A DNA stretch of 64,000 nucleotides, taken from the NCBI RefSeq assembly GCF_023744375.2, contig NZ_CP146284.1:1488001-1552000 (forward strand). Reading direction: 5' to 3'. Of this stretch, positions 854-61,685 are shown piece after piece; the stretch's first letter is position 1; every line of letters starts with the position of its first letter. The notes under the pieces were generated by a model. That model saw only the letters and a list, made by a program, of their open reading frames with translations, ran no database searches and was not told where the DNA came from. A program made the position numbers and the translations under genes. The DNA is from Parabacteroides sp. AD58 (GTDB taxonomy: Bacteria; Bacteroidota; Bacteroidia; Bacteroidales; Tannerellaceae).

Positions 854-875
854 TGATTCAGTTCGCAAGTATCTT

Positions 876-1577
876 TCACTTTCCGGCAAGAAAAGCAAGA
901 TAGTCTGCCACAGCCTTATGGCACCCGGTGAAGTCAGGAGTACGGCGGCCTTTGTATTTCCTGAAACTTACCGTCCCGTTCCTGTCGATTGCCGTCACAT
1001 GTCGGTTGAATGTCCCTTTGGTTCTGATATGGATGTCAAAGCCGTCCCTTCCGGTGATTTCAAGAAACATTTCTGCCGTTATTTTCTCACCGCTCAGGAA
1101 TTTCCGCTTGTTCTCGTCAAGCTGTTGTTGCCATCTCTCTTCTTTCTCCTTTCTTTCCAGCTCTTCTTTTCTTTTCCGTTCCAGCCGCTTTTCTTCCTGC
1201 CTTTTTGCATATTCCTCACGGGCCTGTACCAAAGGGGTGGAGTCAAGACCGAGGGCATTGAATACATGGACAGACAAGAGGGGGATGATTTTTCCTTCCT
1301 CCACATCCTTCAGGGTGTTTTCAATCCAGTTCCTGCAATAGGTCGCCGCTTCTTCCCGGTGCCCCTCCTTGTCAAGAATTCTGCGTGAATACTGCCCGCA
1401 GGAAAAATGGACATCACCTATCTTGCAGATTACATGGAAACTGTCTTCACTTTCGTTTCCATATTCGTTTTTTCTTGCCAGCGAGATGAATACATTCTCC
1501 GCATACGGTTCAAGTTCCATGTATGGGGCAACGATAGTATTGCCGTCAAACTTGTATTTCAATACTTTTGTTTTCAT
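876..1577 (-). CDS. Hypothetical protein with a charged coiled-coil middle
   Basis: About 233 residues from the ATG at 1577, four bases after the stop of the upstream gene. An ATG at 1613 would overlap that gene by 32 nt and is less likely. The N-terminal 110 residues look globular and contain HVICKIGDVHFSCGQ. Residues about 120-165 are almost entirely E, K, R and Q (KRQEEKRLERKRKEELE), predicting a long charged helix or coiled coil. The C-terminal 60 residues form another small domain (FTGCHKAVADYLAFLAGK). It is the last gene of the leftward block. I do not recognise a family. Confidence 0.6.
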   Translation of the reverse strand: MKTKVLKYKFDGNTIVAPYMELEPYAENVFISLARKNEYGNESEDSFHVICKIGDVHFSCGQYSRRILDKEGHREEAATYCRNWIENTLKDVEEGKIIPLLSVHVFNALGLDSTPLVQAREEYAKRQEEKRLERKRKEELERKEKEERWQQQLDENKRKFLSGEKITAEMFLEITGRDGFDIHIRTKGTFNRHVTAIDRNGTVSFRKYKGRRTPDFTGCHKAVADYLAFLAGK

Positions 1578-1581
1578 ATTT

Positions 1582-1914
1582 CTATTCAGTTTTTCTGTCG
1601 TTACAAATTTCATCTATTATCTCATTCTCTTTTCTCTCACCTTTGAGGAAGGCAAGCAGCCGCCGGAAAAAGAACGGGGCATGGTCTGTCCCCAGCTGTG
1701 AGCTTTCCCCGTTCCGGGTAGCGCATATTGCAAACCGTCCCAGTCCGAAACTGTCCTGTGGCGGTACGATATGGAATGACAGATTTTCCGTACCGTTGAT
1801 ATGAACCCCGCCATGGTAGGTATAGAAAGTCTTTGCGGCTCTACTGTCCGTATCAATGTCCACCCGGCTGTAGCCGCGGCGTTTCAGTTCTCTGATGATT
1901 TCCCTGTTTGTCAT
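1582..1914 (-). CDS. Small hypothetical protein, translationally coupled
   Basis: About 110 residues beginning MTNREIIRELKRRGYSR. The chosen ATG (1914) overlaps the TGA of the upstream J-domain gene as ATGA, the usual sign of coupled translation. A longer open frame to 1995 would lie inside that gene. The sequence mixes a helical N-terminus with a glycine- and aromatic-rich middle (FYTYHGGVHINGTENLSFH). No known motif is seen. Confidence 0.6.
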   Translation of the reverse strand: MTNREIIRELKRRGYSRVDIDTDSRAAKTFYTYHGGVHINGTENLSFHIVPPQDSFGLGRFAICATRNGESSQLGTDHAPFFFRRLLAFLKGERKENEIIDEICNDRKTE

Positions 1915-2981
1915 AATTGTATCTGTCTGATTGGATTTGAAATGTTCTGGTGTATGCTTCCCGTATTTGAGGATACGCCGTGTTCTGACATCCACTTCCG
2001 GTATGCCGTGGTATATTCCTGCCTTTCCCGTTCCAGACTGCTTTCCGTTTCCGGAGTATATCCGAGCAGGCGTATGTATCCGCCGTTGCAGCCTGTCAGT
2101 TCGCAGCGCATTCCGGCTGCCTCCAGTTTCCCGATGCGTTTCTGTGCCGTCTTCGCACTCGAATATTCCTTGGGCCAGAAATAATGTTCTCCCTGTGAGC
2201 CGTAAAAGTCTTCTCCGAGTATCATTTCTCCGATATGTCTCCGGCTCTCGATGAAGCCGAACCGGGCCTTGCCCAGTGCCTGGCGCATTGCCTTGTGTGC
2301 CGATCCTTCGGGATGGCGGAACACTTCAGGACTGTCTTTTCCCGTAATCTTCGGCAGTTCCATCCGGTACGGCTGTCTGTAGCTGCCGATTCCGAGCGTA
2401 AGGTAGAAGTTGGTGTGGAAATAGTCCGTCATAGGGTCGCTTTCATCGAAATTGTATGACATCACAAAATCCCTGACGTTTGTCATCACCTCCTTGGCCC
2501 GGTCGGTCAGACTGTCCGATGCCTGGATGTTGTAGTGGTTGATGTCTCCCTGTACCTTGCCGGATTCTTTTGTAAAAGCCTCGAAGTCCGCTTTCATCAG
2601 CCGGACAAGGATTGAGCTGTATCCGTCCCTGCGGACCGAGAAGGTGTATCTCGGATAGGTCTCCTTGAGCCATGTCCTGACCAGTTCCGTGATTTCCGGC
2701 GAGGACTGTCCGGTATAGTTACGCCCTTTCCAGCGGTATTCATTGTACACGTACTCGGTGTATTCCCTTGCGGTGGCATCCTGATAGTCGTGTTCATACC
2801 CTGTAGCGGCAGAGGAGACACCAGGCCTGTCTTTCCATATCTCGAAAAGTTTCTCAAACTCGGTGTTCAGTTTTTGCATGAGGACAGTGTCACCACCCTT
2901 GTCGGGGTGGTGAAGCATTGCCAGTCGGCGGTATTCCTTCTTCAGGTCCGCCAGTGAGTGTATGTTCTGAAAATAAGTCAT
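1911..2981 (-). CDS. J-domain protein with a large unknown C-terminal region
   Basis: About 356 residues from MTYFQNIHSLADLKKEYRR (ATG at 2981); an in-frame extension to 3167 would overrun the neighbouring small gene. Residues 1-55 match a DnaJ-type J domain, with the invariant HPD within LAMLHHPDKGGD. J domains stimulate the ATPase of DnaK-type chaperones. The remaining 300 residues carry no zinc finger or substrate-binding module of standard DnaJ, so this is a type III J protein tied to the mobile element. A plausible inferred role is recruiting host DnaK to an element complex such as replication or transfer. It is coupled to the next gene by ATGA. Confidence 0.7.
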   Translation of the reverse strand: MTYFQNIHSLADLKKEYRRLAMLHHPDKGGDTVLMQKLNTEFEKLFEIWKDRPGVSSAATGYEHDYQDATAREYTEYVYNEYRWKGRNYTGQSSPEITELVRTWLKETYPRYTFSVRRDGYSSILVRLMKADFEAFTKESGKVQGDINHYNIQASDSLTDRAKEVMTNVRDFVMSYNFDESDPMTDYFHTNFYLTLGIGSYRQPYRMELPKITGKDSPEVFRHPEGSAHKAMRQALGKARFGFIESRRHIGEMILGEDFYGSQGEHYFWPKEYSSAKTAQKRIGKLEAAGMRCELTGCNGGYIRLLGYTPETESSLERERQEYTTAYRKWMSEHGVSSNTGSIHQNISNPIRQIQL

Positions 2982-2992
2982 GATCGTAGATG

Positions 2993-3202
2993 TTAAAGTC
3001 CCGCGAGACGGTTGATGAAATATATCTGCCAGTCCTGGTCGAGTCCGAGGTTGCTGCACGCGATCTCGAAGTCTTCGCTTCTCAGGTCGTTGTCCTCCTG
3101 AAGTTCCTGCAGGTTCCTTATCTCGTCGTCCAGGTATTCCTGTGCCTCTTCCTTGCCGCAACTGCATGAGTTGCAGATCAGGTCAATGATGTTCCGTGCC
3201 AT
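2993..3202 (-). CDS. Small acidic hypothetical protein
   Basis: 69 residues (MARNIIDLICNSCSCGKEEA...). Three cysteines cluster as CNSCSCG near residues 10-15. The rest is acidic and helical, ending DWQIYFINRLAGL. It sits 11 nt from both neighbours in the leftward block, the same spacing seen through the whole operon, which supports real coding. Function unknown. Confidence 0.6.
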   Translation of the reverse strand: MARNIIDLICNSCSCGKEEAQEYLDDEIRNLQELQEDNDLRSEDFEIACSNLGLDQDWQIYFINRLAGL

Positions 3203-3213
3203 ATCCGTTGTCT

Positions 3214-3810
3214 TTAGTTGTTTGTCAGGTATATGTCCCGTTTCCCGTCATAGCTTTTGCCGTTCCACCACTCATCGGCGGCCTCGGCGAATGTCTGCCC
3301 GGAATCGTCTGAAGGGAAGTCGGACGCCTTGAGTCCGGTCAGGTATTCAAGAGCTTCGGTATTGTTGGACTTCCACCATTCCTGCATCTTTTCAAGAAAG
3401 GATTGTCTGGAGCAGGTCTCCACATTGTCCGCGCACCGGGAGCACCAGATGTCGTCGTCCACGTCACTGTGGTATTCGTTCGTGTTGACGTCCACCCATG
3501 CCTGTATCTCAATCTCTGCAGAACCGCAGTCGCTGCATACCCGAATTCTTGAATCGTCAGGGAGCTTGCGTCTGGCCTTGCCGTCATAGAGACTGACGGC
3601 CCGTTCCACCAGTTTTTCCCGGTAATGGTCCGTCAGTTCCGCATAGAACCGTTCGGAGGCTCCGAATACACCCTTGTCCGTCATCAGACTCCATTTTTCC
3701 CAAAAATGTGGGTACATTTCCTTGAAGACTGTCCTGCACTCTTCCTCACTCCAAGCATTCCACATGTAGTAGAAGAAGCTGGACACTGCATTTTCCGCTT
3801 GATATTTCAT
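3214..3810 (-). CDS. Hypothetical protein with a zinc-ribbon-like CxxC pair
   Basis: 198 residues. VCSDCG and WCSRCADN place two CxxC pairs about 30 residues apart near the middle, a pattern that typically binds one zinc ion as a ribbon. The N-terminus is aromatic (FFYYMWNAWSEEE) and the C-terminus acidic with two WW pairs. The fold points to nucleic-acid or protein binding, but this is inference. Start spacing of 9 nt to the upstream stop supports the ATG at 3810. Confidence 0.6.
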   Translation of the reverse strand: MKYQAENAVSSFFYYMWNAWSEEECRTVFKEMYPHFWEKWSLMTDKGVFGASERFYAELTDHYREKLVERAVSLYDGKARRKLPDDSRIRVCSDCGSAEIEIQAWVDVNTNEYHSDVDDDIWCSRCADNVETCSRQSFLEKMQEWWKSNNTEALEYLTGLKASDFPSDDSGQTFAEAADEWWNGKSYDGKRDIYLTNN

Positions 3811-3819
3811 ACTTCCGAT

Positions 3820-4062
3820 TTATTTGAGGTTATACATTCTTGCAAAATGGCTGTTCACTTCGGGAATCCTTTTCTTGTAATAGGGCTGGTTGTCCCTGCA
3901 CCAGTCCGCCAGTTCCTGTTTGTTCCTGAAAGGTTCCCTCCAGCTTTGCCCGCTCATGATCATTTCCACCTGCGGGGTCAGCTCTCTGATGAACGCTCCG
4001 ACAGTCCATCCTTCCCGGACGTGTCTGTCCATATTGACTTTTGTTGCCATATCGTCTTTCAT
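3820..4062 (-). CDS. Small hypothetical protein of mobile-element type
   Basis: About 80 residues from ATG at 4062, one base after the TGA of the upstream gene; an ATG at 4089 would overlap that gene. The sequence GWTVGAFIRELTPQVEMI followed by a basic, aromatic C-terminus (WCRDNQPYYKKRIPEVN) resembles small proteins I associate with Bacteroidales conjugative elements, without a known activity. Helical, slightly basic, soluble. Confidence 0.6.
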   Translation of the reverse strand: MKDDMATKVNMDRHVREGWTVGAFIRELTPQVEMIMSGQSWREPFRNKQELADWCRDNQPYYKKRIPEVNSHFARMYNLK

Positions 4063-4063
4063 T

Positions 4064-4645
4064 TCAAGAGTTCCCGTTTGTATTTTCAAGTTGAAGCCTG
4101 ACCGCTTCGTACATCTGATTAAGCCAATCTATGTTGCTGGCTCCAAGTTCGAAGGGAGCCTGGCTGCAAACCTCTTCCATACTGTCCTTTATTGTTGCCA
4201 TTACGGTAAGATGTTTGTCAGTAACCTCAATTCCCGTAACATAACATTCGTATGGATCAGCATTATCGTCGAACCAGATAATCCATACAGGGTCTTCTCC
4301 GTTATCGGTAAGTTTGATTTCTTTCAGGCCGTGCGCATCAAGCAGTTGTCTGATGGCCTCGATTATGTCCTTCCGCAGTTCTTCAATCCTGTCTCTGAAA
4401 CACATGGCCGTGTATCTTACCTTGCCTTTATTGTTCCGTTCCCTGACAGAGAGGATTTGCATGTCGGGGTGAGAGCCGAAATTCCAGTCTGTCACCTCGT
4501 CATCATCGCGGGTAGTGTGGATATTGCCTCCCAATACCAGACCGCAGTCTTCCTCTACCATTCTTTCCGCCTCGTCGCGGTCTTCCGCCACGACCTTGTA
4601 GGTACCCTCGAAGGCGTACCTTACTCTTACTTCGTACTTTGCCAT
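4064..4645 (-). CDS. Hypothetical acidic protein
   Basis: 193 residues. The first 65 residues (YEVRVRYAFEGTYKVVAED, then ERMVEEDCGLVLGGNIHTT) look like a small alpha/beta domain; related N-termini are common in Bacteroidales element cargo as I recall them. The middle contains HGLKEIKLTDNGEDPVWIIW, a second beta-rich domain. No catalytic motif is seen. It is one base from the next gene and so probably coupled to it. Confidence 0.6.
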   Translation of the reverse strand: MAKYEVRVRYAFEGTYKVVAEDRDEAERMVEEDCGLVLGGNIHTTRDDDEVTDWNFGSHPDMQILSVRERNNKGKVRYTAMCFRDRIEELRKDIIEAIRQLLDAHGLKEIKLTDNGEDPVWIIWFDDNADPYECYVTGIEVTDKHLTVMATIKDSMEEVCSQAPFELGASNIDWLNQMYEAVRLQLENTNGNS

Positions 4646-4680
4646 AATTCTTATGATTTGATTGTTGTTAAATGAATTGT

Positions 4681-5613
4681 TTATGAAGCGACAAGAGCTA
4701 TCCTTTCACCGAAAAAGGAGTCGCATACCCCGTACACATGCTTGATGGAGCATTCATATTCTGACCTTTCGTTATCAAGCCGGAATCGGAATCCGTGATA
4801 GTCCCTGACTTCCAGTTTCAGCCTGACATCCTTTTTGAGTTCCATCTCCAGGAGGCTTCCGCCGCCGTACATGGAGCTGAAGATGCCGCAGCAGTTGCCT
4901 TTGGGGATAATGACTTCCCCAAGCGAGAATCCGGCATCATAAAGTTCCTGCAGGTTTACCTTGCCGATATAGGTCAGCAGGTTGGCACCGCAGCAGGAGT
5001 TGATGAGTTCCTGGTAGAATTGCTTATAGGATACCTGTTCCTTGCCGTCCCTGTATTTTTTGTCGGGGAAACGGCCGTACACCGAGTAGCCTTTCTCCAC
5101 CAGCATCTTCTTCACCTTGGCGGGATTGAGGTTCAGCGCGTCTATCATATCCCCGAAATAGGATTCCTTGTACCGGTAGCCTTCCTGCGATTCCAGCCAG
5201 TTGGAATTGATGCAGTCGTAGTTGGACAGCATCTCGACACGCACGAGGATGTCATCCGTGTTTTTGAGAAGTTCTTTCAGCGTGTCAGAGTCATTTCTGT
5301 CATAGATTTCTTCCCTGATTTCGTCTTCGTGTTCTTCAAAGAACTTGTCCACTTCCTCTTCCTCAAAGCCGTGGAAGCCGGTGCACTCATCCTTCAGCTT
5401 TGAGATGATTTCACGGACGCTTTCCCATTCGGCGTCACCGTACCATTCGTCCACTTTCTCCCACAGACTTTCACAGCTCCTTTCTTCCAGACACTTCTGG
5501 ATGATGTCACGGCAGTTGTCGAGATTGTCGTTGTAGTCCACCCATACCAGCGTGTAGGACTTGTCCATGAGCGATTTCACGAATTCCATTGTCAGTCTTT
5601 CCTGTTCTTCCAT
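4681..5613 (-). CDS. Hypothetical acidic protein, 310 aa
   Basis: Residues 80-115 are strongly acidic (FEEEEVDKFFEEHEDEIREE), and the whole protein has a marked excess of D and E. The C-terminal third holds NSCCGANLLTYIG and IIPKGNCCGIFSSMYGGG, two CC pairs in glycine-rich surroundings. High acidity in a gene block that also encodes an ArdA-like protein could mean DNA mimicry, but no family is recognised and other explanations are equally open. Confidence 0.55.
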   Translation of the reverse strand: MEEQERLTMEFVKSLMDKSYTLVWVDYNDNLDNCRDIIQKCLEERSCESLWEKVDEWYGDAEWESVREIISKLKDECTGFHGFEEEEVDKFFEEHEDEIREEIYDRNDSDTLKELLKNTDDILVRVEMLSNYDCINSNWLESQEGYRYKESYFGDMIDALNLNPAKVKKMLVEKGYSVYGRFPDKKYRDGKEQVSYKQFYQELINSCCGANLLTYIGKVNLQELYDAGFSLGEVIIPKGNCCGIFSSMYGGGSLLEMELKKDVRLKLEVRDYHGFRFRLDNERSEYECSIKHVYGVCDSFFGERIALVAS

Positions 5614-5697
5614 TTCTGTTACCTGTGTACGGCAGGATTCTGTTTCCCGTACATGTCGTTTATAAATGAGAAGAGCGACCTTTCGGCCGCTCCCTTG

Positions 5698-5985
5698 TCA
5701 TTCGTTCTCTTGCTTGAGCCTTTCATATTTCTCTGTTTCCATTTCCGTCTCGCCGTCGAAGTGGAAATGTGCCGTATGACCGTATCCGGTTTTAGGCTCA
5801 CCGCCGCATTTGTGCAGGGCGGTATCTATTTCCCAGTCGGTATCACCGATTCCGAGGGATATGTATGTCCCTCTGAGCATACAACCGGCCAGCCTCAGTG
5901 CGGCATCCTTCCTTTGTTCCCTGCGGAGCCTGTCAAATGCCGCGAGCGCGATTTCCCGGTTGGGTATTTTTACCGTAGTTTCCAT
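5698..5985 (-). CDS. Small hypothetical protein
   Basis: 95 residues starting METTVKIPNREIALAAFDRL. The middle contains LRGTYISLGIGDTDWEID and the C-terminus is acidic and histidine-rich (GYGHTAHFHFDGETEMETE). It lies 12 nt from the upstream gene. A further short frame (about 5619-5726) follows on the same strand but has no independent support. Confidence 0.55.
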   Translation of the reverse strand: METTVKIPNREIALAAFDRLRREQRKDAALRLAGCMLRGTYISLGIGDTDWEIDTALHKCGGEPKTGYGHTAHFHFDGETEMETEKYERLKQENE

Positions 5986-5997
5986 ATCGTTTCATTT

Positions 5998-6312
5998 TCA
6001 GTTTGCCGTTTCCATGTCTTTTCCGTTGTCTTTCGCTGCCAGGACACCGAAAGGCAGGTCGAGTATCCTGTGGTTGAAACACAGTGTTGAATTGTAGTCC
6101 GTGCGTTGCCAGAGCGTGAAGCGGTCTCCGGCGAACGACCATCTGAAATAGCCTGACAGTGAGCCGAACTGCGGATTGACATTCCTGCTTATGAGGAAGC
6201 GGTTCACGTCCACGATGTGTCCCGCCGTCAGTAGTATGTTCAGTATTTCCACGAATGCCAGCTGCGAGTATGGGTCGATAGGCATTACAGGTCCTTTGAA
6301 GTTGATTTCCAT
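5998..6312 (-). CDS. Small hypothetical protein
   Basis: 104 residues with a mostly non-polar N-terminal helix region (SQLAFVEILNILLTAGHIVD) and a compact aromatic middle (YFRWSFAGDRFTLWQR). No membrane segment or motif is evident. The 12-nt gap to the ArdA-like gene and 12-nt gap to the next gene fit the operon pattern. Confidence 0.55.
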   Translation of the reverse strand: MEINFKGPVMPIDPYSQLAFVEILNILLTAGHIVDVNRFLISRNVNPQFGSLSGYFRWSFAGDRFTLWQRTDYNSTLCFNHRILDLPFGVLAAKDNGKDMETAN

Positions 6313-6324
6313 ATCTTTTGTCTT

Positions 6325-6816
6325 TTAGTTATAATTGTCATCAAATATCTCGTATCGGAAGGGAAGCATGTCGCAGTAGTAGCTTGATACGCCCGTGTAT
6401 ATCAGGGCATCTTCTCCCGTGTCCGCGTCTTCTTCCGTTTCCGTGACGGTATCCCCGTACAGGTCATGGTAGTGTGATACCATCATGTGCGGGTCATCCG
6501 TGGTGATGTCATATCCGTAACTTCTGCTCCAGCTTATGAAAAACTCCGTTTCTTCCTCTTCGAGCCTTTCAAGGGCATCCCTGATCTCGAAGAAGTTGGG
6601 ACAGAGCCATTCACGGCTGATCAGTGTGTCCGGAATGTTTTCCCATTTCGGATACCGGTATTCCGGTTCCTTTTCCCCGGGAAACAGGTCGGAACAGGCA
6701 CTCAGGAACTCGCCCATGTCGCTGTAGTCGGACAGGTGCAGCCAGTAGTCCCTGTAATCCTTTATGTCCATGAGATGCTGTGTGGTCACGGCAATCTCTG
6801 CATTGTTCAGATCCAT
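6325..6816 (-). CDS. ArdA-like antirestriction protein
   Basis: 163 residues, very acidic. Residues about 24-75 follow the ArdA pattern: a W, then DYSDMGEFLSACSDLFPGE, then acidic residues with PE, then W-x-x-IPDTLISREW. ArdA proteins are elongated DNA mimics that block type I restriction enzymes and are common on conjugative elements. The C-terminal half (SRSYGYDITTDDPHMM, then an EED-rich stretch) is less ArdA-like. The gene starts one base after the stop of the hairpin gene and shares a transcript with the methylase/helicase gene. The call rests on pattern recognition alone. Confidence 0.5.
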   Translation of the reverse strand: MDLNNAEIAVTTQHLMDIKDYRDYWLHLSDYSDMGEFLSACSDLFPGEKEPEYRYPKWENIPDTLISREWLCPNFFEIRDALERLEEEETEFFISWSRSYGYDITTDDPHMMVSHYHDLYGDTVTETEEDADTGEDALIYTGVSSYYCDMLPFRYEIFDDNYN

Positions 6817-6817
6817 A

Positions 6818-7036
6818 TTACTTGTCTTTTATGTATGTGGATGCCGGGGATTCCATTCCACCGACCTCGACAAGGTGCCGTGTCCCGGCTGTGCAGGGTT
6901 TTTCGGGAAAATACCGCAGCTCCGCGAGGATGATTTTCCTGAAAACCGCCTGCGGCCTGACCTTGCTCAGCCGATGGGGACGCGGCTTACCTTTGTCGGT
7001 GGGAATGGAACTCCCGGTCTTCTTCATACGGTTCAT
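6818..7036 (-). CDS. 72-aa protein encoded by a self-complementary gene (copy B)
   Basis: The frame begins ATG two bases after the TAA of the methylase/helicase gene and ends one base before the ATG of the ArdA-like gene, so it fills the whole interval. This tight tiling supports translation. The peptide is basic (about 30% K/R in its first half) with a core KIILAELRYFPEKPC. The same core, as KIILAPEGLRYFFPKPC, occurs in copy A upstream of the operon. Bases 6844-7017 form a long inverted repeat. It could be a small nucleic-acid-binding protein, or the frame could be incidental to a structured element. Confidence 0.5.
   Translation of the reverse strand: MNRMKKTGSSIPTDKGKPRPHRLSKVRPQAVFRKIILAELRYFPEKPCTAGTRHLVEVGGMESPASTYIKDK
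6844..7017. repeat. 174-bp long hairpin, copy B
   Basis: Left arm 6844-6900 and right arm 6960-7017 pair over most of their length: CCGGGG with TCCCGG, TTCCATTCC-ACCGAC with GTCGGTGGGAATGGAA (one bulge), AAGGT with ACCTT, GCCGTGTCCC with GGGGACGCGGC, then GGCTG with CAGCC. The core at 6904-6941 (GGGAAAATACCGCAG, then GAGGATGATTTTCC) is shared with copy A at 11942-12118, while the arms differ in sequence yet still pair. Confidence 0.75.
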
Positions 7037-7038
7037 AT

Positions 7039-10000
7039 TTATTCTGTTATGCGCTGGCTTCCCCAGCTGATGTGTATTTTGCCTTCACTGTCCTGCGTGC
7101 GGATGAGCAGGCTGTCGATGACAGACATTGTGATGTCGAACTCCTCGAAGATTTCTGACTGTTCCTTGACCTCACCGGTCTTGATGAATTCGTTCAGACG
7201 CTCCTTGGTCAGTACCAGTGCCATCAGGTTCTGTTCGACCGAATCTTCGTAGGTGACGTAGTGGACATCCTTCATTTCTTTGGAATCGAGACGGATGAAA
7301 CGGAAGTAGAACTGTTCCATACGGGGGATGTTCCACTGCAGGGATTCCAGTATCACGTCGTTGCAGGTAGGTATGTTCACGGAGCTGCTCAGGCTCTGCT
7401 GTGTGCATATCAGGATGCCGTTGATGGTGGAGTCGAATTCGGTCACGATGCTCTGTCGTTTCTTGAAGGCTACATCTCCCTTGACCACAAATACAGGTCT
7501 GTCGGGAAAATGTTCCCGGATATAGCTCTCGTAGAGGTCGAAGGCCGCCAATGTGGTACATCCGATGGCAACCTTACCCGGTATTGTCCTTATGAGCCTT
7601 TCAATATAGCGGGTCTTGGAAGGATAACTGTCACCGTAGTATCCCTCTATCAGGTGAGGTACCGAACAGGCTTTGATAAGCAGCTTGATCTGCCTCATGA
7701 GTCTCAGTCCTGCATCCTTTTTCGTGTCTCCCGTGTTATTGTAGTACAGCTCACAGATGCGGCAGAATTCCTCGATTATGACACGGTATACCTCGTGTTC
7801 TCCTTCCGAGGGACGGACGGTATGTGTCCGTATCCGGTATTTCTCTCCTGCGAAGTCCCTGAATTTACGGGTGATGACCGTCTTGCCGATAAGTTCGGAG
7901 AGTTCGTCCTTGTTGTACACGTCCTGGTTCTGTTTCTCGATGCCGAATACAGTGGCTTTCCCCGGACAGTGGCAGGCACGGAAAAGGACATGCCCCCTGA
8001 AGGCGGGGAACGGTGTTCCGTAATCCGGGTTGTTCTCTTCCTCTATCTCGTGGTCCCTGTTTTCGTGGTAGACCTGCGGGCTCCAGCATATCATGTTTAC
8101 GGAGTTGTTGTAGAGTAGTTCGAACTGGCTGTACAGTTCCGCGATGTTGTTGCGGGTGGTTGTTCCCGTGTCGAGGATCTTGTACCTGAGCCTCCTGAAT
8201 ATGCACAGGATGTTTCTTGTACGCTGCGATGTGGGATTGGTGATTTCGTCCGACTCGTCGAAGACAAGGCACAGCTTGCCGGAAGTGCGTTTCACGAAAC
8301 GCATCAGTCCTCTTTTCAGTTTCCGGAGCATGGAGGTGGAGACGACAAGGAATGTCCCTTCCGGTATGTTGTTGAGGTCGCCGGCGGTCTGTATTGTACG
8401 GAAGCGTTCCTTGTTTATGGTAAGGAACGGTATCCAGGTCATGTTGGTGGCGATGGCCGGGGCAAGTATGATGACGTTCTTTGCCTTTCTGAACTTGAGC
8501 AGGTATTTCGCCCTGTGATAGACGGCGGCGGTCTTGCCTGAACCCTGCTGCCAGTTCAGCAGGGCGTAGCGTTTCTGCAACACGAGGTTCAGGTCGTGTT
8601 TCTGCAAGTCCGTGAATTCGCAGACTTCACCGTCCTTGTTGATGAATGTGGTGCGGTCCAGGTATTCCTTCAGGCCGGCATCTTCCCGCATTTCCGCAAA
8701 CTGGAGATTCTGGGTCTCGTATTGCCTCTGTTTGCGCCGTATCAGTTTACTGGCGGCACGGATCTGCCGCATGTTCTTTTCTGTGACGTTTTCCGGCATC
8801 GGGAGTTCGGCCCTTCCGAGTATGAGGTCGTTGATGCCTGCGGCCTTGTGCGTGACCTTGTCAAGCAGACGCGGGGCATATTGCTTCAGCTTGAAGCCGT
8901 AGGATGTCTTCACCAATGCCACTTCCTTGCGCGGCACCACGTTCTGCGAGGTGATGTACCTGCGGATGATGCCGAGAACCTTGCCGGTGGTCAGCTTCTT
9001 GCGTTCCCATTCCTTTATCTGTTCCCGGGTGGCATTTTCCGGCGGTTTCTGGTTGCGGAATTTGGACACCAGCGCCTCCGCCTTTTCGACATGCCTGTTC
9101 AGCACGGCATGGGCTTTCAGCTCGTACATGTATTTGGCGAGCCTGTACTCGAACTGTTCCAGCTCTTCTTTGTCTATATGGTTGCACTCCCGCATCAGCT
9201 GGAGGCGCAGCCGGTGTTTCATTTTCCGCACTTCGGCTATGCGTTTCTTCAGCTCATCCATGCTGACAAACTCTTCCGCGTTGTAGGGCTGCATTTCAAT
9301 ATGGAGGGAACGGCGGAGGAATACCATGATTTTTGTTGCGAAATTCTGCACGCCCACCGTAGAGAAGGCTGAATGTTCCAGCCTGGTCTGGCCGATGAAG
9401 GAGAAATTCGAGTTGATTTTCGCCACGCGTGTCTTTTCCCAGAACTCGTTCTGCATGAAGGAGAGAGGGACGATGACCATCAGGATTCCGGCAGGGTTGA
9501 GCACGTCATAGGCCTTGTCCATGTAGAATTCCTGCGACAGCCTGTAATCAAATTTCAGGTTGAAGGGCGGATTTCCGACAATGATGTCGAAACGCTGTTC
9601 GGGATTGTACAGCTGTATGTCGCATTTCTCGATATGAGCTTCCGGGTAGAGGTATCTGGCAACGGCCACCGCCTTGCCGTCAATGTCGAATCCGTAGGCA
9701 TTGTGCAGGTTGGGCAGATGGTTGAAGAAGTTGCCCATGCCGCAGCACATGTCAAGTACCATTTCCGCCGATGTCGGAGAAAGGGTCTCCACCATGCTCC
9801 GGCATATGTCGTGCGGGGTGAAGAACTGTCCCATCTCGAATTCCTTCTTGGCCTCGGCGTATTCATGGTAGCTGGTGAAATCCGCCTGCCTGAGGTTGTG
9901 CAGTCCTCCGATTCCCGTGTAGCAGTTGTAGATGCTTTCCTTCGAAACGAGGTCCTTGCCGGAGTCTATGGCGAAAAGGATTTTCTCGTTGATCTCGGCA

Positions 10001-10041
10001 CGCCTGTCCTGGGGAATCTGTTGGGGTATGATGGCATACAT
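7039..10041 (-). CDS. N6-adenine DNA methyltransferase fused to an SF2 helicase
   Basis: 1000 residues. Residues 73-77 read FFTPH, 97-104 DMCCGMGN (SAM-binding motif I) and 157-160 NPPF (catalytic motif IV), together a class-gamma N6-adenine methylase like type I HsdM or Eco57I. After a basic helical linker (about 265-440), residues 498-504 hold QQGSGKT (Walker A) and 595-598 DESD (Walker B), and the C-terminal RecA-like lobe follows, so this is an SNF2/DEAD-type helicase. No nuclease motif is seen, so it is not a complete restriction enzyme. The order resembles phage P1 DarB, which protects incoming DNA from type I restriction. The neighbouring ArdA-like gene supports an anti-restriction role. 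A modification or defence enzyme is the alternative. Confidence 0.8.
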   Translation of the reverse strand: MYAIIPQQIPQDRRAEINEKILFAIDSGKDLVSKESIYNCYTGIGGLHNLRQADFTSYHEYAEAKKEFEMGQFFTPHDICRSMVETLSPTSAEMVLDMCCGMGNFFNHLPNLHNAYGFDIDGKAVAVARYLYPEAHIEKCDIQLYNPEQRFDIIVGNPPFNLKFDYRLSQEFYMDKAYDVLNPAGILMVIVPLSFMQNEFWEKTRVAKINSNFSFIGQTRLEHSAFSTVGVQNFATKIMVFLRRSLHIEMQPYNAEEFVSMDELKKRIAEVRKMKHRLRLQLMRECNHIDKEELEQFEYRLAKYMYELKAHAVLNRHVEKAEALVSKFRNQKPPENATREQIKEWERKKLTTGKVLGIIRRYITSQNVVPRKEVALVKTSYGFKLKQYAPRLLDKVTHKAAGINDLILGRAELPMPENVTEKNMRQIRAASKLIRRKQRQYETQNLQFAEMREDAGLKEYLDRTTFINKDGEVCEFTDLQKHDLNLVLQKRYALLNWQQGSGKTAAVYHRAKYLLKFRKAKNVIILAPAIATNMTWIPFLTINKERFRTIQTAGDLNNIPEGTFLVVSTSMLRKLKRGLMRFVKRTSGKLCLVFDESDEITNPTSQRTRNILCIFRRLRYKILDTGTTTRNNIAELYSQFELLYNNSVNMICWSPQVYHENRDHEIEEENNPDYGTPFPAFRGHVLFRACHCPGKATVFGIEKQNQDVYNKDELSELIGKTVITRKFRDFAGEKYRIRTHTVRPSEGEHEVYRVIIEEFCRICELYYNNTGDTKKDAGLRLMRQIKLLIKACSVPHLIEGYYGDSYPSKTRYIERLIRTIPGKVAIGCTTLAAFDLYESYIREHFPDRPVFVVKGDVAFKKRQSIVTEFDSTINGILICTQQSLSSSVNIPTCNDVILESLQWNIPRMEQFYFRFIRLDSKEMKDVHYVTYEDSVEQNLMALVLTKERLNEFIKTGEVKEQSEIFEEFDITMSVIDSLLIRTQDSEGKIHISWGSQRITE

Positions 10042-10070
10042 GTCTTTTCTTTTTTAATGGTTGGAAACGA

Positions 10071-10103
10071 AGACACCCCGCAAGGATGTCTTACGGGGTG
10101 TCT
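10071..10103. terminator. Hairpin between operon genes
   Basis: AGACACCCCG and CGGGGTGTCT form a perfect 10-bp stem with a 13-nt loop in the 80-nt gap after the 313-aa gene. Read leftward it is followed by TCGTTTCC, only a weak U-run, so it may partly reduce transcription into the methylase/helicase gene or stabilise the upstream message. Confidence 0.6.
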
Positions 10104-10121
10104 GAATAAGTATTTCATGAA

Positions 10122-11063
10122 TCACTCTTCTCTGAGTGTGATTTCATCCAGCCGCAGCCTTCTGTAGCAGTTCTCTGCGGCCTGGCTGTCCTTGAAGCGT
10201 ACGTCGATGCGTCCGTTCTTGTAGAACTTGATCTGTTCTGCGTTGCTCAGGGTGAGGTTGTACCATTCGGTTATATCCACATCGCGTCTGTCAAGGCCGA
10301 TGACCATACCGCTTGAACCGTTTATCACGTCATCTGCCCCGTATGCGATACCTTCGCAGAAAATGTCCACTTTCCTTCCGCAGTCATACGAGAACTCATA
10401 TTCCCGGTGGTATTCCAGATGGATGCTGTCCCAGGACACGATGTCAGGGAAAGTTATCTTGTCCTTTTTCAGTTCGGGCTTCACCTTGCTCCAGCGGGAA
10501 GGCTGTACCGTTTTCAGGAAACGGGCCAGCAGTTCTTCCTCTGCGGTCTCACGGAAACTTTTTCCGCCGAGGTGTTCAATGACCATGTCCACGTAAGTCT
10601 GGTAGACCGGACGGAATCCCATGCGCATGGCCTTCTCGTCGATTACAGGAATGGGTACGTCTACATTGTAGGTCCTGTTGAAATAGGAAATGATGCGATT
10701 CGCGAAATTCGCGTTGGCATTGCAGTTGTTGTCCGCAAGCTCGTTGATGAGGTCAAACGGTTTGAATTCGTTGTGGGTATAGTCATCCTCCCCGCTGTTG
10801 TTGAAATAGAAATTCCGTATGGAGACCTTACCGTTATCCTCATACTTGAAGCTCTTGATTTCCCGGTACCGTTCCGCTTCTTCCTTGAAGATGGCATACC
10901 AACGGTCGATACGGTCAAGCGTCTTGTAGAGCTGGTCCTGCTGGAGCTGGCAATACTGCCTGTCCTGTTCTGTAATCTTGTCCTCGTTCCTTACTTGCAC
11001 GTTCAGGATACCTGTGAGCAGGTCAGTGTGGCTGCCTGCTGTTCTTGTTGCTGTTGTCTGCAT
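10122..11063 (-). CDS. Hypothetical protein, 313 aa
   Basis: Starts MQTTATRTAGSHTDLLTG. Residues 30-70 predict a helical region (EQDRQYCQLQQDQLYKTLD), the centre is asparagine- and aromatic-rich (ADNNCNANANFANRI), and the C-terminal third looks beta-rich (MVIGLDRRDVDITEWYNL). No signal peptide, membrane segment or catalytic motif is visible. It is 12 nt downstream of the first gene of the block. Confidence 0.6.
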   Translation of the reverse strand: MQTTATRTAGSHTDLLTGILNVQVRNEDKITEQDRQYCQLQQDQLYKTLDRIDRWYAIFKEEAERYREIKSFKYEDNGKVSIRNFYFNNSGEDDYTHNEFKPFDLINELADNNCNANANFANRIISYFNRTYNVDVPIPVIDEKAMRMGFRPVYQTYVDMVIEHLGGKSFRETAEEELLARFLKTVQPSRWSKVKPELKKDKITFPDIVSWDSIHLEYHREYEFSYDCGRKVDIFCEGIAYGADDVINGSSGMVIGLDRRDVDITEWYNLTLSNAEQIKFYKNGRIDVRFKDSQAAENCYRRLRLDEITLREE

Positions 11064-11075
11064 AACTGTATTGTT

Positions 11076-11906
11076 TTAGAGATTGTCAATTTCGGGTTTG
11101 ATACGGTAACAGTAGGTGATGTGGCTGTCCATGTCCTTGACCAGCTTGACCTGTTCGGGATAAAAGTTGAGACGCCGTTCCACGGCCTGGACATCTATTT
11201 TGTCCCACTCGTGCTGCGGCAGGAACCGGTTCTCATGACGGAAACACCAGAGAACGATATGGTTTTCCTGGTTGCCCTTGAACACGGTCCCTTCATAGTC
11301 CTTCAGGAACTGTAGGAAGTCCTCTTCGGTCCTGAAAGCCTTGTCGAAGCCTTGGTACAGGTTACGTGCGTCCGGACCCGTGTTTTTTGTCAGATAATAC
11401 TGTCTCCATGTCTCAGTGGTGAAATCGCCGTAGAGAGGGTCAGGTTCGGAATAGGACCATAACGGCACTTTTGCCGTGAATGCAACGGCACCGTTGGCGC
11501 ACGCACCGCAGTTGCCCCAGTCTTGGAATATCCCTTCCGTCCATCTGACGAACTTCAACTGGAGGGGGTCAATATGGTGGAAGGATCCTCCGCTGACACT
11601 TAAACCGATACCGTCATACTCTTCCCATATGAAAGGGATATAGGGGATTTCACAGATGGAAATCAGTCCGTCCGTATTTTTGCGTTTCTCGATGAGGGCG
11701 TTGCCGTAATATTTCCCGTATCTGTCCACATAGATGAGTCTGTCACCGACCTGTGGAATCTTTTCAGAGCGTGTCCTTTCTATCAGTTCCACATAACCGT
11801 TGGCCATATCCACGTCCTGCTGTGTCAGCCGGTGTTCATGATCGTACAGAATGTTCAGTGGTTTGAGTGTTTCCACCGTGTACTTGTTCTTTGTTGCCTG
11901 TAACAT
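11076..11906 (-). CDS. First gene of the leftward block, unknown (DUF4121-like?)
   Basis: 276 residues, MLQATKNKYTVETLKPLN... The central GNCGACANGAVAF is cysteine/glycine-rich and is followed by an aromatic stretch (WSYSEPDPLYGDF). It reminds me of DUF4121 proteins in Bacteroides elements, but I cannot confirm this. The gene heads the operon and its leader carries hairpin copy A. A degenerate copy of its first 107 or so codons is found at about 13,926-14,216, showing that this part of the element was duplicated. Confidence 0.6.
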   Translation of the reverse strand: MLQATKNKYTVETLKPLNILYDHEHRLTQQDVDMANGYVELIERTRSEKIPQVGDRLIYVDRYGKYYGNALIEKRKNTDGLISICEIPYIPFIWEEYDGIGLSVSGGSFHHIDPLQLKFVRWTEGIFQDWGNCGACANGAVAFTAKVPLWSYSEPDPLYGDFTTETWRQYYLTKNTGPDARNLYQGFDKAFRTEEDFLQFLKDYEGTVFKGNQENHIVLWCFRHENRFLPQHEWDKIDVQAVERRLNFYPEQVKLVKDMDSHITYCYRIKPEIDNL

Positions 11907-11941
11907 AACATTTGATTTTTTGTTAGTCCGGCTTCTGGGGC

Positions 11942-12118
11942 CGGAGTTCCCATAACTACAGGCTTAAAAAGGTCGTGTTCCGTACATGCAAGGCTTCGGG
12001 AAAAAATACCGCAAGCCCTCCGGGGCGAGGATGATTTTTTCCACGAACCCGAAGGGCTTGGCCTTGCTTGTACGAGAAGAACACGAATTACCTTTGCCTG
12101 TGGTTATGGGGACTCGGC
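11942..12118. repeat. 177-bp long hairpin, copy A
   Basis: Arms pair as CCCATAACTACAGGC (11949-11963) with GCCTGTGGTTATGGG (12096-12110), AAAGG with CCTTT, TCGTGTTC with GAACACGA, CGTACATGCAAGGC with GCCTTGCTTGTACG, and CTTCGGG with CCCGAAG. The core (GGGAAAAAATACCGCAAG, then GCGAGGATGATTTTTTCC) matches copy B at 6904-6941. The third, degenerate copy of this leader at 14.24 kb lacks 185 bp corresponding to 11928-12112. Confidence 0.75.
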
Positions 12119-12281
12119 TGCGGTATGACTTCTCCTTTTGAGGTATGTTTGTGCGGTGAGATTATGGCCTTTTTATTCGGCCTTTTCAGAAAGAAATGTT
12201 ATCTTTACAAATGAAATAATGAGTTGTTTGAAAGCATGAGAAATATAGCGGTTCGGAACAGTCCGGCTTTTTCTTATCCAT
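11964..12281 (-). pseudogene. Broken reading frame spanning hairpin copy A
   Basis: A single frame of 106 codons runs from ATG at 12281 (MDKKKPDCSEPLYF) to a TAA at 11964-11966, interrupted by TGA at 12186-12188 and TAA at 12162-12164. Its C-terminal part (SKAKPFGFVEKIILAP, then LRYFFPKPCMYGTR) aligns with the 72-aa protein of copy B. Its N-terminal part matches the 63-aa frame at 14217-14408. I read it as a decayed member of a small-protein family, though nucleotide-level conservation of a structured element would give the same picture. Confidence 0.4.
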
Positions 12282-12282
12282 T
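12201..12282. repeat. Conserved 82-bp block, copy 1
   Basis: 79 of 82 positions match 14328-14409, far above the roughly 70-75% identity of the rest of the duplication. It contains GTTCGGAACAGTCCGGC followed by a T-run on the + strand, a small terminator-like hairpin. The promoter-like box is TATCTTTA here and TATCTTTG in copy 2. Confidence 0.65.
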
Positions 12283-13592: not shown

Positions 13593-13925
13593 ATACTTAA
13601 TCTAGGTCTAATTTATGTAAAATGATTATTCGTAATTATTGTCAGAATTTCATATGTTTTTTTGAAAAAAAATTCATTCAGTAAAATGCGTACCTTCTTA
13701 AATAACAAAAGTAAAACTTTTATTATTTAACGCAGAATGGAAAAAATATCCCTATTTAGAAATGTTAAAACATCAAAATATACATTCCAAAAACAATTTT
13801 CATAAAGTATCTTTTTATTTTTTAGTAGAAGTACTTAAGATTATAGATACGATTATTTTACCGTATAGAATTGAAGGCATTTTGTCCATTTGACGAATAT
13901 CAACAAGCAGGTAGCGATATGTGCA
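13593..13925. other. AT-rich intergenic stretch
   Basis: No convincing gene. It holds a leftward promoter-like box, CAAAAGTA at 13706-13713 (TACTTTTG on the minus strand), about 115 nt upstream of the cytolysin-like gene. The rest is AT-rich with no stable hairpin. Confidence 0.5.
13706..13713 (-). promoter_or_regulatory. Putative -7 box for the cytolysin-like gene
   Basis: TACTTTTG on the minus strand fits the Bacteroidales TAnnTTTG consensus. No good -33 TTTG is found at the usual distance. Confidence 0.4.
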
Positions 13926-14216
13926 AAGCTCCCTGCTGATGCTTAAACCGGTATCGCCATACTTTTTTCAGATGAAAAGGAGGAGTGTAGATAGAAATTA
14001 GCCTGCTTATTTCCTTCGGTTTTCGATGAGGGATACCATAATACTTTCCGTACCTGTCCACATAGATGAATCTATCCCTGATTTACAGAGTCTTTTCAGA
14101 ACGTGTCCTTTCAATCAGTTCCACACAACCACGTTCTGTTGTGTCAACCAATACCAGTTGAGCATTCAACGTTTTTTCTACCGTGTACTTCTTCTTCGCT
14201 TTCTATAACGTAACAT
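13926..14216 (-). pseudogene. Degenerate copy of the 5' part of the 11076-11906 gene
   Basis: Base-by-base it follows the first third of the 276-aa gene (GATGAGGG, CCACATAGATGA, CAGAACGTGTCCTTTCAATC and others) with many substitutions and small indels that destroy the frame. It covers roughly codons 1-107 and ends abruptly at about 13,926, so the rest of the gene is absent. The upstream leader is also duplicated (14217-14409) but lacks the hairpin module. Confidence 0.75.
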
Positions 14217-14408
14217 TTATAACATTTGATTTTTTGTTAGTTCAGCTATGGTATGGCTTTTCCTTTGAGATGTGTTTGTTGGATGAGATTGTGGCCCTTT
14301 TATTCGGTCTTTTCTGAAAGAAATATTATCTTTGCAAATGAGATAATGAGTTGTTTGAAAGCATGAGAAATATAGCAGTTCGGAACAGTCCGGCTTTTTC
14401 TTATCCAT
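14217..14408 (-). CDS. Possible 63-aa protein, short form of the hairpin-gene family
   Basis: Open frame MDKKKPDCSELLYFSCF... ending KNQML. Its first 45 or so codons match the broken frame in copy 1 without the stop codons. The frame then passes through the place where copy 1 has the 185-bp hairpin and ends just after. Whether it is translated is unclear, since the conserved part could equally be an RNA on the opposite strand. Confidence 0.3.
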   Translation of the reverse strand: MDKKKPDCSELLYFSCFQTTHYLICKDNISFRKDRIKGPQSHPTNTSQRKSHTIAELTKNQML

Positions 14409-14409
14409 T
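14327..14409 (+). ncRNA. Candidate short RNA, copy 2 of the conserved block
   Basis: TATCTTTG at 14327-14334 is a perfect -7 box on the + strand, although no -33 TTTG sits at the standard distance. A transcript starting near 14341 would end after CGGAACAGTCCG and CTTTTTC at about 14400, giving about 60 nt. The block is 79/82 identical to 12201-12282. A leftward short ORF uses the same bases, so this is a hypothesis only. Confidence 0.3.
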
Positions 14410-14500
14410 GCCCGTTCTCGTGCGAGTTTGCTCCAATCTGTTGATAGTCAAATAAAAACTATCTTATTACAACAAATATAGTGAAAATATTGGCCCATAC

Positions 14501-31079: not shown

Positions 31080-31110
31080 AAAAAAGAAAAAGGTTGTCAT
31101 CACGACAACC
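31080..31110 (-). terminator. Terminator of the metA-U32-cyclophilin operon
   Basis: GGTTGTC and GACAACC form a tight 7-bp stem with a 5-nt loop; leftward transcripts then run into a U-rich tract (AAAAAAGAAAAA on the + strand). It sits 170 nt beyond the cyclophilin stop. Confidence 0.75.
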
Positions 31111-31141
31111 AATCTCCATTGTTAACCTTAAATCTAATACC

Positions 31142-31207
31142 ATGAAAAACACAGTGCAAATGTATAGCTTCATGCTAAACAACACAAGTTTTTATTTGGA
31201 AAAATGA
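31142..31207 (+). other. 21-codon mini-ORF beside the 31.1-kb hairpin
   Basis: ATGAAAAACACAGTGCAAAT opens a 21-residue frame (MKNTVQMYSF...) preceded by TTAACCTTAAATCTAATACC. I have an impression that this block recurs in Bacteroidales intergenic regions, but cannot check it here. Translation is unproven. Confidence 0.25.
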
Positions 31208-34965: not shown

Positions 34966-34999
34966 TAAAAAAAGCCTCCTTTTTCAAGGAAGCTTTTCG
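34966..34999 (-). terminator. Terminator of the tRNA-Gln pair
   Basis: Leftward, AAAAGCTTCCTT pairs with AAGGAGGCTTTT and is followed by a U-run (seven A residues on the + strand). The stem has one mismatch. It lies just after the second tRNA in transcription order. Confidence 0.75.
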
Positions 35000-35000
35000 T

Positions 35001-35070
35001 TGTTCTACCAAGATTCGAACTTGGACAAACAGGACCAGAATCTGTTGTGCTACCATTACACCATAGAACA
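35001..35070 (-). tRNA. tRNA-Gln (CTG)
   Basis: 70 nt without CCA. The acceptor ends TGTTCTA and TAGAACA pair, the D arm reads GGTGTAATGGTAGCAC, the anticodon loop TTCTGGT gives CTG, which reads CAG, and the T arm has GTTCGAATC. The T-stem is CCAAG/CTTGG. An A-C pair sits at the base of the anticodon loop in both copies. Confidence 0.9.
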
Positions 35071-35110
35071 ATGTAAACAAAGTAAATAATTATATCACAT
35101 CCGAAAAAGT

Positions 35111-35180
35111 TGTTCTACCAGGATTCGAACCTGGACAAACAGGACCAGAATCTGTTGTGCTACCATTACACCATAGAACA
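35111..35180 (-). tRNA. tRNA-Gln (CTG), second copy
   Basis: Identical to the neighbouring tRNA except that the T-stem is CCAGG/CCTGG: both sides of one base pair changed together, so the fold is preserved. The copies are 40 nt apart and share the promoter at 35.22 kb. This is the first of the two in transcription order. Confidence 0.9.
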
Positions 35181-35222
35181 ATGTCGTACGTTGTATCAAC
35201 CACAACTTTCTCGTTTGCGGTG

Positions 35223-35388: not shown

Positions 35389-35481
35389 TATCGTTTCACC
35401 TGGGTGATACGATCGTTCCACGGCTGTGATACGATCGTTCCACATAGGTGAAACGATCATTCCACACGGGTGGAACGATAA
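35389..35481. repeat. Palindromic tandem array 2, 22-bp period
   Basis: GTGATACGATCGTTCCAC occurs twice in tandem, followed by GTGAAACGATCATTCCAC, with partial units at both ends (ATCGTTTCACC and GGTGGAACGAT). Period is 22 bp with a variable 4-nt spacer. Each unit is nearly self-complementary, so the whole array reads almost the same on both strands. It lies between the tRNA promoter and the IS. Confidence 0.85.
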
Positions 35482-58654: not shown

Positions 58655-58681
58655 CTGCCAGAATAACAAAGATAAAGAGAA

Positions 58682-58744
58682 ATGAGAACATTTACAGTAA
58701 ATACATATTGGTGGTGGCGCCTCGGACAACTCAAGCAGTCGTAA
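58682..58744 (+). CDS. trpL: trp leader peptide
   Basis: 20 codons, MRTFTVNTYWWWRLGQLKQS. Three consecutive tryptophan codons (TGGTGGTGG) at positions 10-12 make the ribosome stall when charged tRNA-Trp is scarce. It lies between the promoter and the attenuator hairpin. It corresponds to the published Bacteroid-trp leader motif, as I recall it. Confidence 0.92.
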   Translation: MRTFTVNTYWWWRLGQLKQS

Positions 58745-58832
58745 GAGACGAAGGCCTTCATGTATTTTAATAAGTAAATAAGAAATAAGAATATGAGCGG
58801 TCTGTCGCACTTGCGACAGACCGCTTTTTTTT
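58745..58832 (+). promoter_or_regulatory. trp attenuator
   Basis: Terminator stem AGCGGTCTGTCGCA with TGCGACAGACCGCT at 58796-58825 is perfect over 14 bp and is followed by eight T residues. Upstream, GGCGCCTCGG and GACGAAGGCC segments offer alternative pairing for an antiterminator. Stalling at the WWW codons would favour readthrough into trpB. Confidence 0.9.
58796..58832 (+). terminator. trp leader intrinsic terminator
   Basis: 14-bp perfect stem with a CT loop and T-run; see the attenuator entry. Confidence 0.95.
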
Positions 58833-61578: not shown

Positions 61579-61685
61579 GGATGAAATTCTTTAGTTCACG
61601 GCGTGAATTAAGTAATCCACGGCGCGAACTAAGTAATTCACGACGTGAACTAAGTAATCCGCAGCGTGAACTAAAGAATTATCCG
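61579..61685. repeat. Palindromic tandem array 3, 21-bp period, between trpE and trpG
   Basis: Four units of the form TAAttCACGgCGTGAACTAAG recur every 21 bp from about 61590 to 61674. Each centre (TTCACGGCGTGAA) is palindromic, and the flanks extend this: CGGATGAAATTCTTTAGTTC at the left is inverse to GAACTAAAGAATTATCCG at the right. It lies within the trp operon in a 286-nt gap, so it should be transcribed. Confidence 0.85.

Follow-up and report, generated by a model that had tools for sequence, protein, structure and literature searches.

Hairpins of Bacteroidales conjugative elements as candidate promoters in single-stranded DNA

The window considered here is a stretch of 64,000 nucleotides (nt) from Parabacteroides sp. 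AD58 (contig NZ_CP146284.1, positions 1,488,001 to 1,552,000). Its first 12.3 kb belong to a conjugative element, of which only the hairpin-bearing end is present. Two long hairpins, A and B, end 35 nt (A) and 26 nt (B) upstream of the minus-strand start codons at 11906 and 6816, and the 5' arm of A leads into the gene starting at 11906 (Table 1). Judging from sequence and predicted structure, these hairpins and their relatives are probably Frpo-like promoters that act in single-stranded DNA (ssDNA), serve the genes of the leading region, and have a conserved DNA apex of their own.

Table 1. Features of the hairpin-bearing end of the conjugative element and its vicinity (window positions).
Feature	Position	Strand	Basis or remarks
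Hairpin A	11942..12118	+ (proposed transferred strand)	folding and window energy scan, DNA-parameter fold
Hairpin B	6843..7018	+	folding and window energy scan, DNA-parameter fold
Conserved apex of A, AAATACCG ... GAGGATGATT	12004..12036	+	most columns invariant in 65 aligned copies, which had been found by that very core
Conserved apex of B	6909..6935	+	alignment and DNA-parameter fold
-33-like element CCTTGC, 3' arm of A	12062..12067	+	proposed non-template strand
-7 box TACCTTTG, 3' arm of A	12089..12096	+	at a mismatch; TTG to TA is 22 nt
-33-like element CCTTGC of B	6961..6966	+	
-7 box TACCTTTG of B	6988..6995	+	22 nt after TTG
5' arm of A, proposed template arm	11942..11994	+	pairing computed, template role proposed
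First gene after A, 276 amino acids (aa)	11076..11906	-	DUF4121 (PF13497), E = 4.9e-66
Second gene of the presumed A operon, 313 aa	10122..11063	-	no assigned function
Third gene of the presumed A operon, 1000 aa	7039..10041	-	N6-methylase-helicase fusion
Gene after B	6325..6816	-	predicted fold, possibly ArdA-like
Further genes behind B	876..6312	-	mostly without assigned function; 5998-6312, 5698-5985, 4681-5613, 4064-4645, 3820-4062, 3214-3810, 2993-3202, 1911-2981, 876-1613
Stretch of conjugative element	874..12282		91-96% identity, in three pieces, to a Bacteroides ndongoniae element
Second, decayed copy of the element end	13884..14480		hairpin missing between short GGCT/AGCT-like repeats

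A and B are the two lowest-energy sites of the 64 kb (-101.7 and -99.0 kcal/mol in 180-nt windows with a step of 60; the next site has -70.3). With RNA parameters, copy A (11942-12118) folds at -101.2 kcal/mol (z = -12.5) and copy B, folded over 6830-7030, at -108 kcal/mol (z = -9.6); in each case none of 200 shuffled sequences was as good. Both folds are retained with DNA parameters, but are weaker (-59.6 and -53.8 kcal/mol). The core GGGAAAA..TACCGCA / GAGGATGATTTT is common to both hairpins, A having two extra A's before TACCGCA. When A was compared with the window by BLASTN (E < 1), the match in B consisted of the core alone (44 columns, 79.5%), and the arms of each copy form long stems. 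Thus the initial annotation was right in ascribing to the two copies the same core and different but still paired arms. Two more long inverted repeats are present in the window (61585-61680 and 35390-35457, 77% and 81% complementary); they lack the hairpin core.

Further copies were collected using a core pattern, which matched 33 stretches in viral contigs and at least 120 in species genomes; all copy counts are lower bounds. Among the matches listed, 170 are distinct; 149 of these fold into a hairpin having 25 or more arm pairs and 21 fail. The 149 hairpins include 19 copies of other types (listed loci), and the remaining 130 were thinned at 92% identity to 66 and then to the 65 copies of the alignment, where window copy B replaced L131, which has the same hairpin, and L145, whose 3' arm diverges beyond CCTTGC and lacks a -7 box, was omitted.

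In this structure-free alignment of 65 diverged copies, 92.1% of the pair cells hold standard pairs, compared with a mean of 76.8% after shuffling and with 39.5-50.9% when the partners are slid by 1-3 columns. Double changes are seen at 21 of the 33 pairs and amount to 373 cells, against a shuffled mean of 120, while the mean column identity of the arms between copies is 52%. The arms were also swapped between copies, independently of any alignment. This test set aside 14 of 51 representatives, which were of alphaproteobacterial, viral and other types; for the 37 diverged copies used, the energy is -75 kcal/mol for cognate and -44 kcal/mol for swapped arms, and the cognate arm ranks first in 33. 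That selection maintains the hairpin fold is therefore strongly supported. The covariation suggested by two copies in the initial annotation is borne out by these larger sets, so that the check proposed there, namely more copies and covariation statistics, has an affirmative answer; recent gene conversion as the source of matching arms is at odds with both the diversity of the copies and the arm swap.

A protein-coding reading of the hairpin was rejected. In none of the six frames does the number of open copies exceed 24 of 66, and the lengths of the apex fall into all three modulo-3 classes (45, 13 and 8 copies). The protein earlier assigned to copy B, with stops in A, thus has no conserved frame through the hairpin.

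The tip of the hairpin is a triloop in 58 of 66 copies. Below it are the conserved apex TACCG / GAGGATGA, an A/T stretch, a small side stem-loop, and a conserved stem GCAAGG/CCTTGC. Beyond CCTTGC, the 3' arm contains a TANNTTTG-type box, the distance from TTG to the box being 22 nt in 37 of 48 copies. According to the accessible text of PMC7366714, promoters of the primary sigma factor of Bacteroides have the consensus TTTG near -33 and TAnnTTTG at -7. The corresponding pattern TTG-N18..25-TANNTTTG, with TTG as the -33 and TANNTTTG as the -7 element, was found in the 3' arm of 88/149 copies and in the complementary 5' arm of none (0/149).

The -7 box is mostly unpaired: its letters 2-7 are paired in 17-25 of 62 copies, compared with about 60 of 62 for its flanks (the preceding stretch and the following base). 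The two strands also differ in length after CCTTGC, with 21-22 nt on the box strand in 52/65 copies and 17-19 nt on the opposite strand in 56/65. If the last CCTTGC base pair is included, 22 nt on the box arm face about 19 on the template arm. Ordinary DNA from these loci has its commonest spacings at 19-20, and 22 does not stand out clearly. The 22 nt facing about 19, together with the open -7 box, thus make a promoter that is off-pattern in the duplex and near-canonical and pre-opened when folded. The folded form appears to contain the elements of a host promoter, and the duplex to lack such a promoter directed at the gene.

The same data bear on whether the hairpin could be a structured RNA, either the 5' leader of the minus-strand gene or a rightward small RNA made from the 3'-arm promoter. 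Indeed, strong covariation usually indicates RNA, the hairpin sits in the leader region of the gene, and a same-strand gene within 120 nt upstream, present in 59/149 copies, would allow read-through. However, no gene-directed TTG-N18..21-TANNTTTG occurs within 250 nt on the far side of the hairpin (0/65; the box alone, 7/65), the leader likewise shows no promoter of the usual kind towards the gene (0/58), and the promoter boxes are conserved within one arm. The plus strand folds better than the mRNA strand in 34 of 37 copies. The loops point the same way: GNRA loops are found in none of the 66 copies, whereas 37 have C(GNA)G triloops, which are extra-stable in DNA. Rfam gave no match on the window hairpins or in four loci (a MIR1858 line with E 0.039 is far under its cut-off). 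A structured RNA is thus very unlikely.

As the box strand is the 3' arm, the 5' arm must be the template, and transcription should leave the base of the stem in the 5' direction. Of the 134 copies with a called gene within 400 nt on this side, 129 have it pointing away from the hairpin and 5 towards it, and the remaining 15 of the 149 have none; 101 of the 129 genes start 4-43 nt from the nominal stem base. A cruder first test of the neighbours, using the longest open reading frame (ORF), gave 91 minus, 41 plus and 7 none (n = 139), and was replaced by a coding-score caller because the plus cases were taken for shadow ORFs. On the other side of the hairpin, gene direction varies (79 minus, 50 plus, 20 none).

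The transfer origin oriT is presumably situated at the start of the relaxase operon. The relaxase side enters the recipient last, as given in the accessible text of PMC11541004. Combined, these two points make the transferred strand the one opposite to the relaxase coding strand. Relative to the nearest relaxase gene, 75 of 78 hairpins from 16 genomes lie on the opposite strand, and so do 33 of 36 from 17 further genomes; this would be expected of a transferred strand that serves as the template. Counted by relaxase locus, 18/20 and 12/15 are wholly consistent; no relaxase is present within 75 kb for 21/99 hairpins of the first set and 30/66 of the further genomes. Thus the transferred strand, as deduced from relaxase direction, folds into a long stable stem, and the hairpins lie immediately upstream of genes that, with oriT placed as above, use this strand as template.

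An alternative is that the hairpin is mainly a single-strand origin (ssi/sso-like), where RNA polymerase or primase makes a primer for the second strand and the adjoining genes are incidental. The title of Masai and Arai (1997) reportedly calls Frpo itself a promoter both of transcription and of primer RNA, and folded DNA with a conserved apex could resemble a priming site. On the other hand, one or two copies would be enough for priming, and there are several per element; they stand just upstream of a start codon and read into it, with the frequency given above (129/134); and the opposite-strand tra genes of a related element have no hairpins. All this makes priming quite improbable as the main role.

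Among the matches listed, the genome copies come mostly from Bacteroidales, the exceptions being two alphaproteobacterial metagenome-assembled genomes (MAGs) and a few others. Six hairpin copies are found in MAGs labelled Clostridium or Clostridiales (L047, L069, L121, L115), which reflects either mis-binned Bacteroidales DNA or transfer beyond the phylum. A strict exact pattern, whose counts are a lower bound on prevalence, occurs in 20 of 61 genomes of the genus of G001 (L070, Phocaeicola vulgatus; reversed control, 0) and in 6 of 295 genomes of the order (reversed control, one match, in G219); thus the family is patchy. Similar DNA was found in plasmids for A (one record), B (two) and the L001 copy (seven), and in phages for A (five records); the plasmid search with an alphaproteobacterial copy gave none. 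Same-core hairpins L165-L169, L058, L086, L119, L128 and L022 come from the two alphaproteobacterial MAGs and one viral contig. They are dispersed near clpX, pyrG and rplU (recognised by eye) and after 5S rRNA, and their bubbles are G-rich where the -7 box would be.

The initial annotation allowed that A might be a decayed copy. However, A has the full architecture and sits upstream of an intact gene; the decayed relative is the segment at 13884-14480, which matches L162 in pieces with 68% and 85% identity. Its presence suggests tandem or successive insertions at one place. The hairpin alone is gone between short repeats, which fits slipped deletion of an unselected palindrome, and it may have been lost in this way after selection ceased. 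In L005 (12504-12599), a copy of the A-type locus ends abruptly in the hairpin apex; this is another apparent palindrome deletion.

The scattered chromosomal copies with the same core in the two alphaproteobacterial MAGs are what one would expect of a palindromic mobile repeat or a recombination site that settles at gene starts and has no promoter function. Such a repeat would hardly account for the single orientation that prevails relative to genes and relaxase in the Bacteroidales sets, or for sigma-type boxes in one arm, and the loss in the decayed copy resembles slipped deletion between short repeats. We consider it extremely unlikely.

Several observations speak against the hairpins being ssDNA promoters in general. 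The strict promoter pattern is missing in 61 of the 149 copies. The two alphaproteobacterial MAGs contain 8 and 5 copies with the same core; those inspected keep the CAAGG/CCTTG stem and the side loop and have no TANNTTTG, and they lie near chromosomal genes of both directions. Six of 114 hairpins are on the wrong strand relative to the relaxase. Finally, the transferred strand is deduced from relaxase direction, and the position of oriT is likewise indirect.

The fold and its covariation, the restriction of promoter elements to one arm, the bubble, the spacer, the orientation of genes and the strand relative to the relaxase are all computed features. A mechanism that would accommodate them is as follows. 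During conjugation, the transferred strand (here, plus) would enter the recipient and fold into the hairpin. The stem would provide a short stretch of duplex; its non-template strand would be the 3' arm, which bears the Bacteroidota -33 and -7 elements. The -7 box would already be open as a bubble, and the bulge would restore the normal spacer length. RNA polymerase with the primary sigma factor might then bind, start near the stem base, copy the 5' arm and continue into the single-stranded DNA next to it, producing mRNA of the neighbouring minus-strand genes. Hairpin A would drive the DUF4121 gene, the 313-aa gene and the methylase-helicase gene, and hairpin B the ArdA-like gene with those behind it. 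Synthesis of the second strand would be expected to silence the genes, because in the duplex the promoter points the other way, its spacer is unusual, and there is no -7 box on the gene strand. The genes switched on in this way may protect the incoming DNA, and RNA started at the hairpin may also prime second-strand synthesis.

Some of the presumed products have recognisable relatives. The methylase part of the 1000-aa protein has a weak match to phrog_10089, 'DarB-like antirestriction' (E 9e-11, 40 bits), and the best match of its whole length is phrog_24008, 'helicase'. For the protein encoded after B, no ArdA profile was matched in Pfam or in a search of PDB sequence profiles (E up to 10), and Foldseek against PDB alone gave no ArdA; a second look (VIA) did. 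Many predicted versions of this protein (P0001-P0003, P0005, P0007 and others) have about 239 aa rather than 163, the start probably being called inside or beyond the hairpin, so that the database starts look wrong.

The element of B. ndongoniae has a TraG P-loop protein, TraM, DUF4138 (which we take to be TraN), a relaxase, MobC and a coupling protein together, and is thus by gene content an element of the Bacteroidales conjugative transposon type. It carries, in order, A, B, a hairpin before a DUF4120 gene, the opposite-strand tra genes, which are free of hairpins, a hairpin before a YpsA-like gene, then MobC, the relaxase and the coupling protein, and beyond the latter two further hairpins ahead of a PRTRC-E gene. 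These last two would come after A once the element is excised as a circle. In L164 (13693-15627), a pair of hairpins about 560 nt apart precedes the gene of PRTRC system protein E, and similar close pairs are present in several other genomes. In L163 (9747-11447), a group II intron reverse transcriptase is found among the tra genes of the relative element. The remainder of the window resembles Bacteroidales chromosome, with the FopS small RNA (31080-31152), a Bacteroidete trp (tryptophan) leader (58662-58806) and tRNAs, including two near-identical genes at 34999-35184.

In the human gut, conjugative elements of Bacteroidales have a major part in gene exchange. A literature search, which did not cover preprints and most subscription papers, found no paper on the expression of their genes on arrival and none on an ssDNA promoter, Frpo or leading region in Bacteroides or Bacteroidales. 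Promoters of this kind are known from E. coli plasmids; in Bacteroidota they seem to be undescribed. A recognisable ssDNA promoter would be a sequence handle marking the transferred strand and the leading-region operons. It points to DUF4121, DUF4120, YpsA-like and other gene families (25 clusters) as candidates for early protective functions, and it makes testable whether gene expression from ssDNA is general across phyla with other sigma factors. A further possibility, which we regard as rather doubtful, is that the apex (AAATACCG ... tiny DNA loop ... GAGGATGATTTT) is the DNA recognition site of a widespread factor that starts RNA synthesis on ssDNA. If so, the apex site would be common to conjugative elements of Bacteroidota, where it is joined to sigma-ABfr boxes, and to the dispersed chromosomal hairpins of some alphaproteobacteria, and transcription from single strands would be ancient and in use well outside the plasmids of enterobacteria.

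Folded ssDNA is read by RNA polymerases in other known systems. The N4 virion RNA polymerase uses hairpin promoters, which resemble those described here in being ssDNA hairpins with a small loop, but are short and serve a phage polymerase. Single-strand origins of rolling-circle replicons (ssoA etc.) are likewise folded ssDNA used by RNA polymerase; however, a replicon usually has few of them, with no link to gene starts. The canonical sigma-ABfr promoter of Bacteroides, as described in the accessible text of PMC7366714, has the same boxes as the 3' arm. The proposed hairpin promoters differ from it in their location in a hairpin arm, in the spacing of 22 nt instead of 19-20 nt, in the bulge, and in the unpaired -7 box.

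The closest counterparts are Frpo1/2 of the F plasmid, stem-loops with -35/-10 boxes that, in the accessible text of PMC9849209, are required for early expression of leading genes in recipients. Frpo homologues occur in the leading region of ColIb-P9, whose ssb, psiB and ardA are expressed early (accessible texts of PMC9849209 and PMC11541004). Samuel et al. listed 13,089 Frpo homologues using BLAST with five known Frpo/ssi sequences, and additional candidates from sigma-70 boxes and fold (PMC11541004, accessible text); words starting with 'bacteroid' are absent from the accessible main texts of that paper and of a 2026 survey (PMC12826799). The core is absent, at up to two substitutions, from the transferred strand of the leading-region stretches of F and R100, which at three substitutions have 19 and 14 overlapping, chance-like matches. 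Like Frpo/ssi of F and relatives, the hairpins have a long stem on the transferred strand, promoter elements that are rebuilt on folding, and a position upstream of leading-region genes for which the transferred strand is the template. Unlike Frpo, they carry Bacteroidota -33/-7 elements instead of -35/-10 and the apex TACCG..GAGGATGA with small loops, which was not found in the leading regions of F or R100; they reside on chromosomally integrated elements, and their arms vary between copies. Thus they would be Frpo-like in working, and by sequence they form a class of their own, whose sigma code is specific to the phylum.
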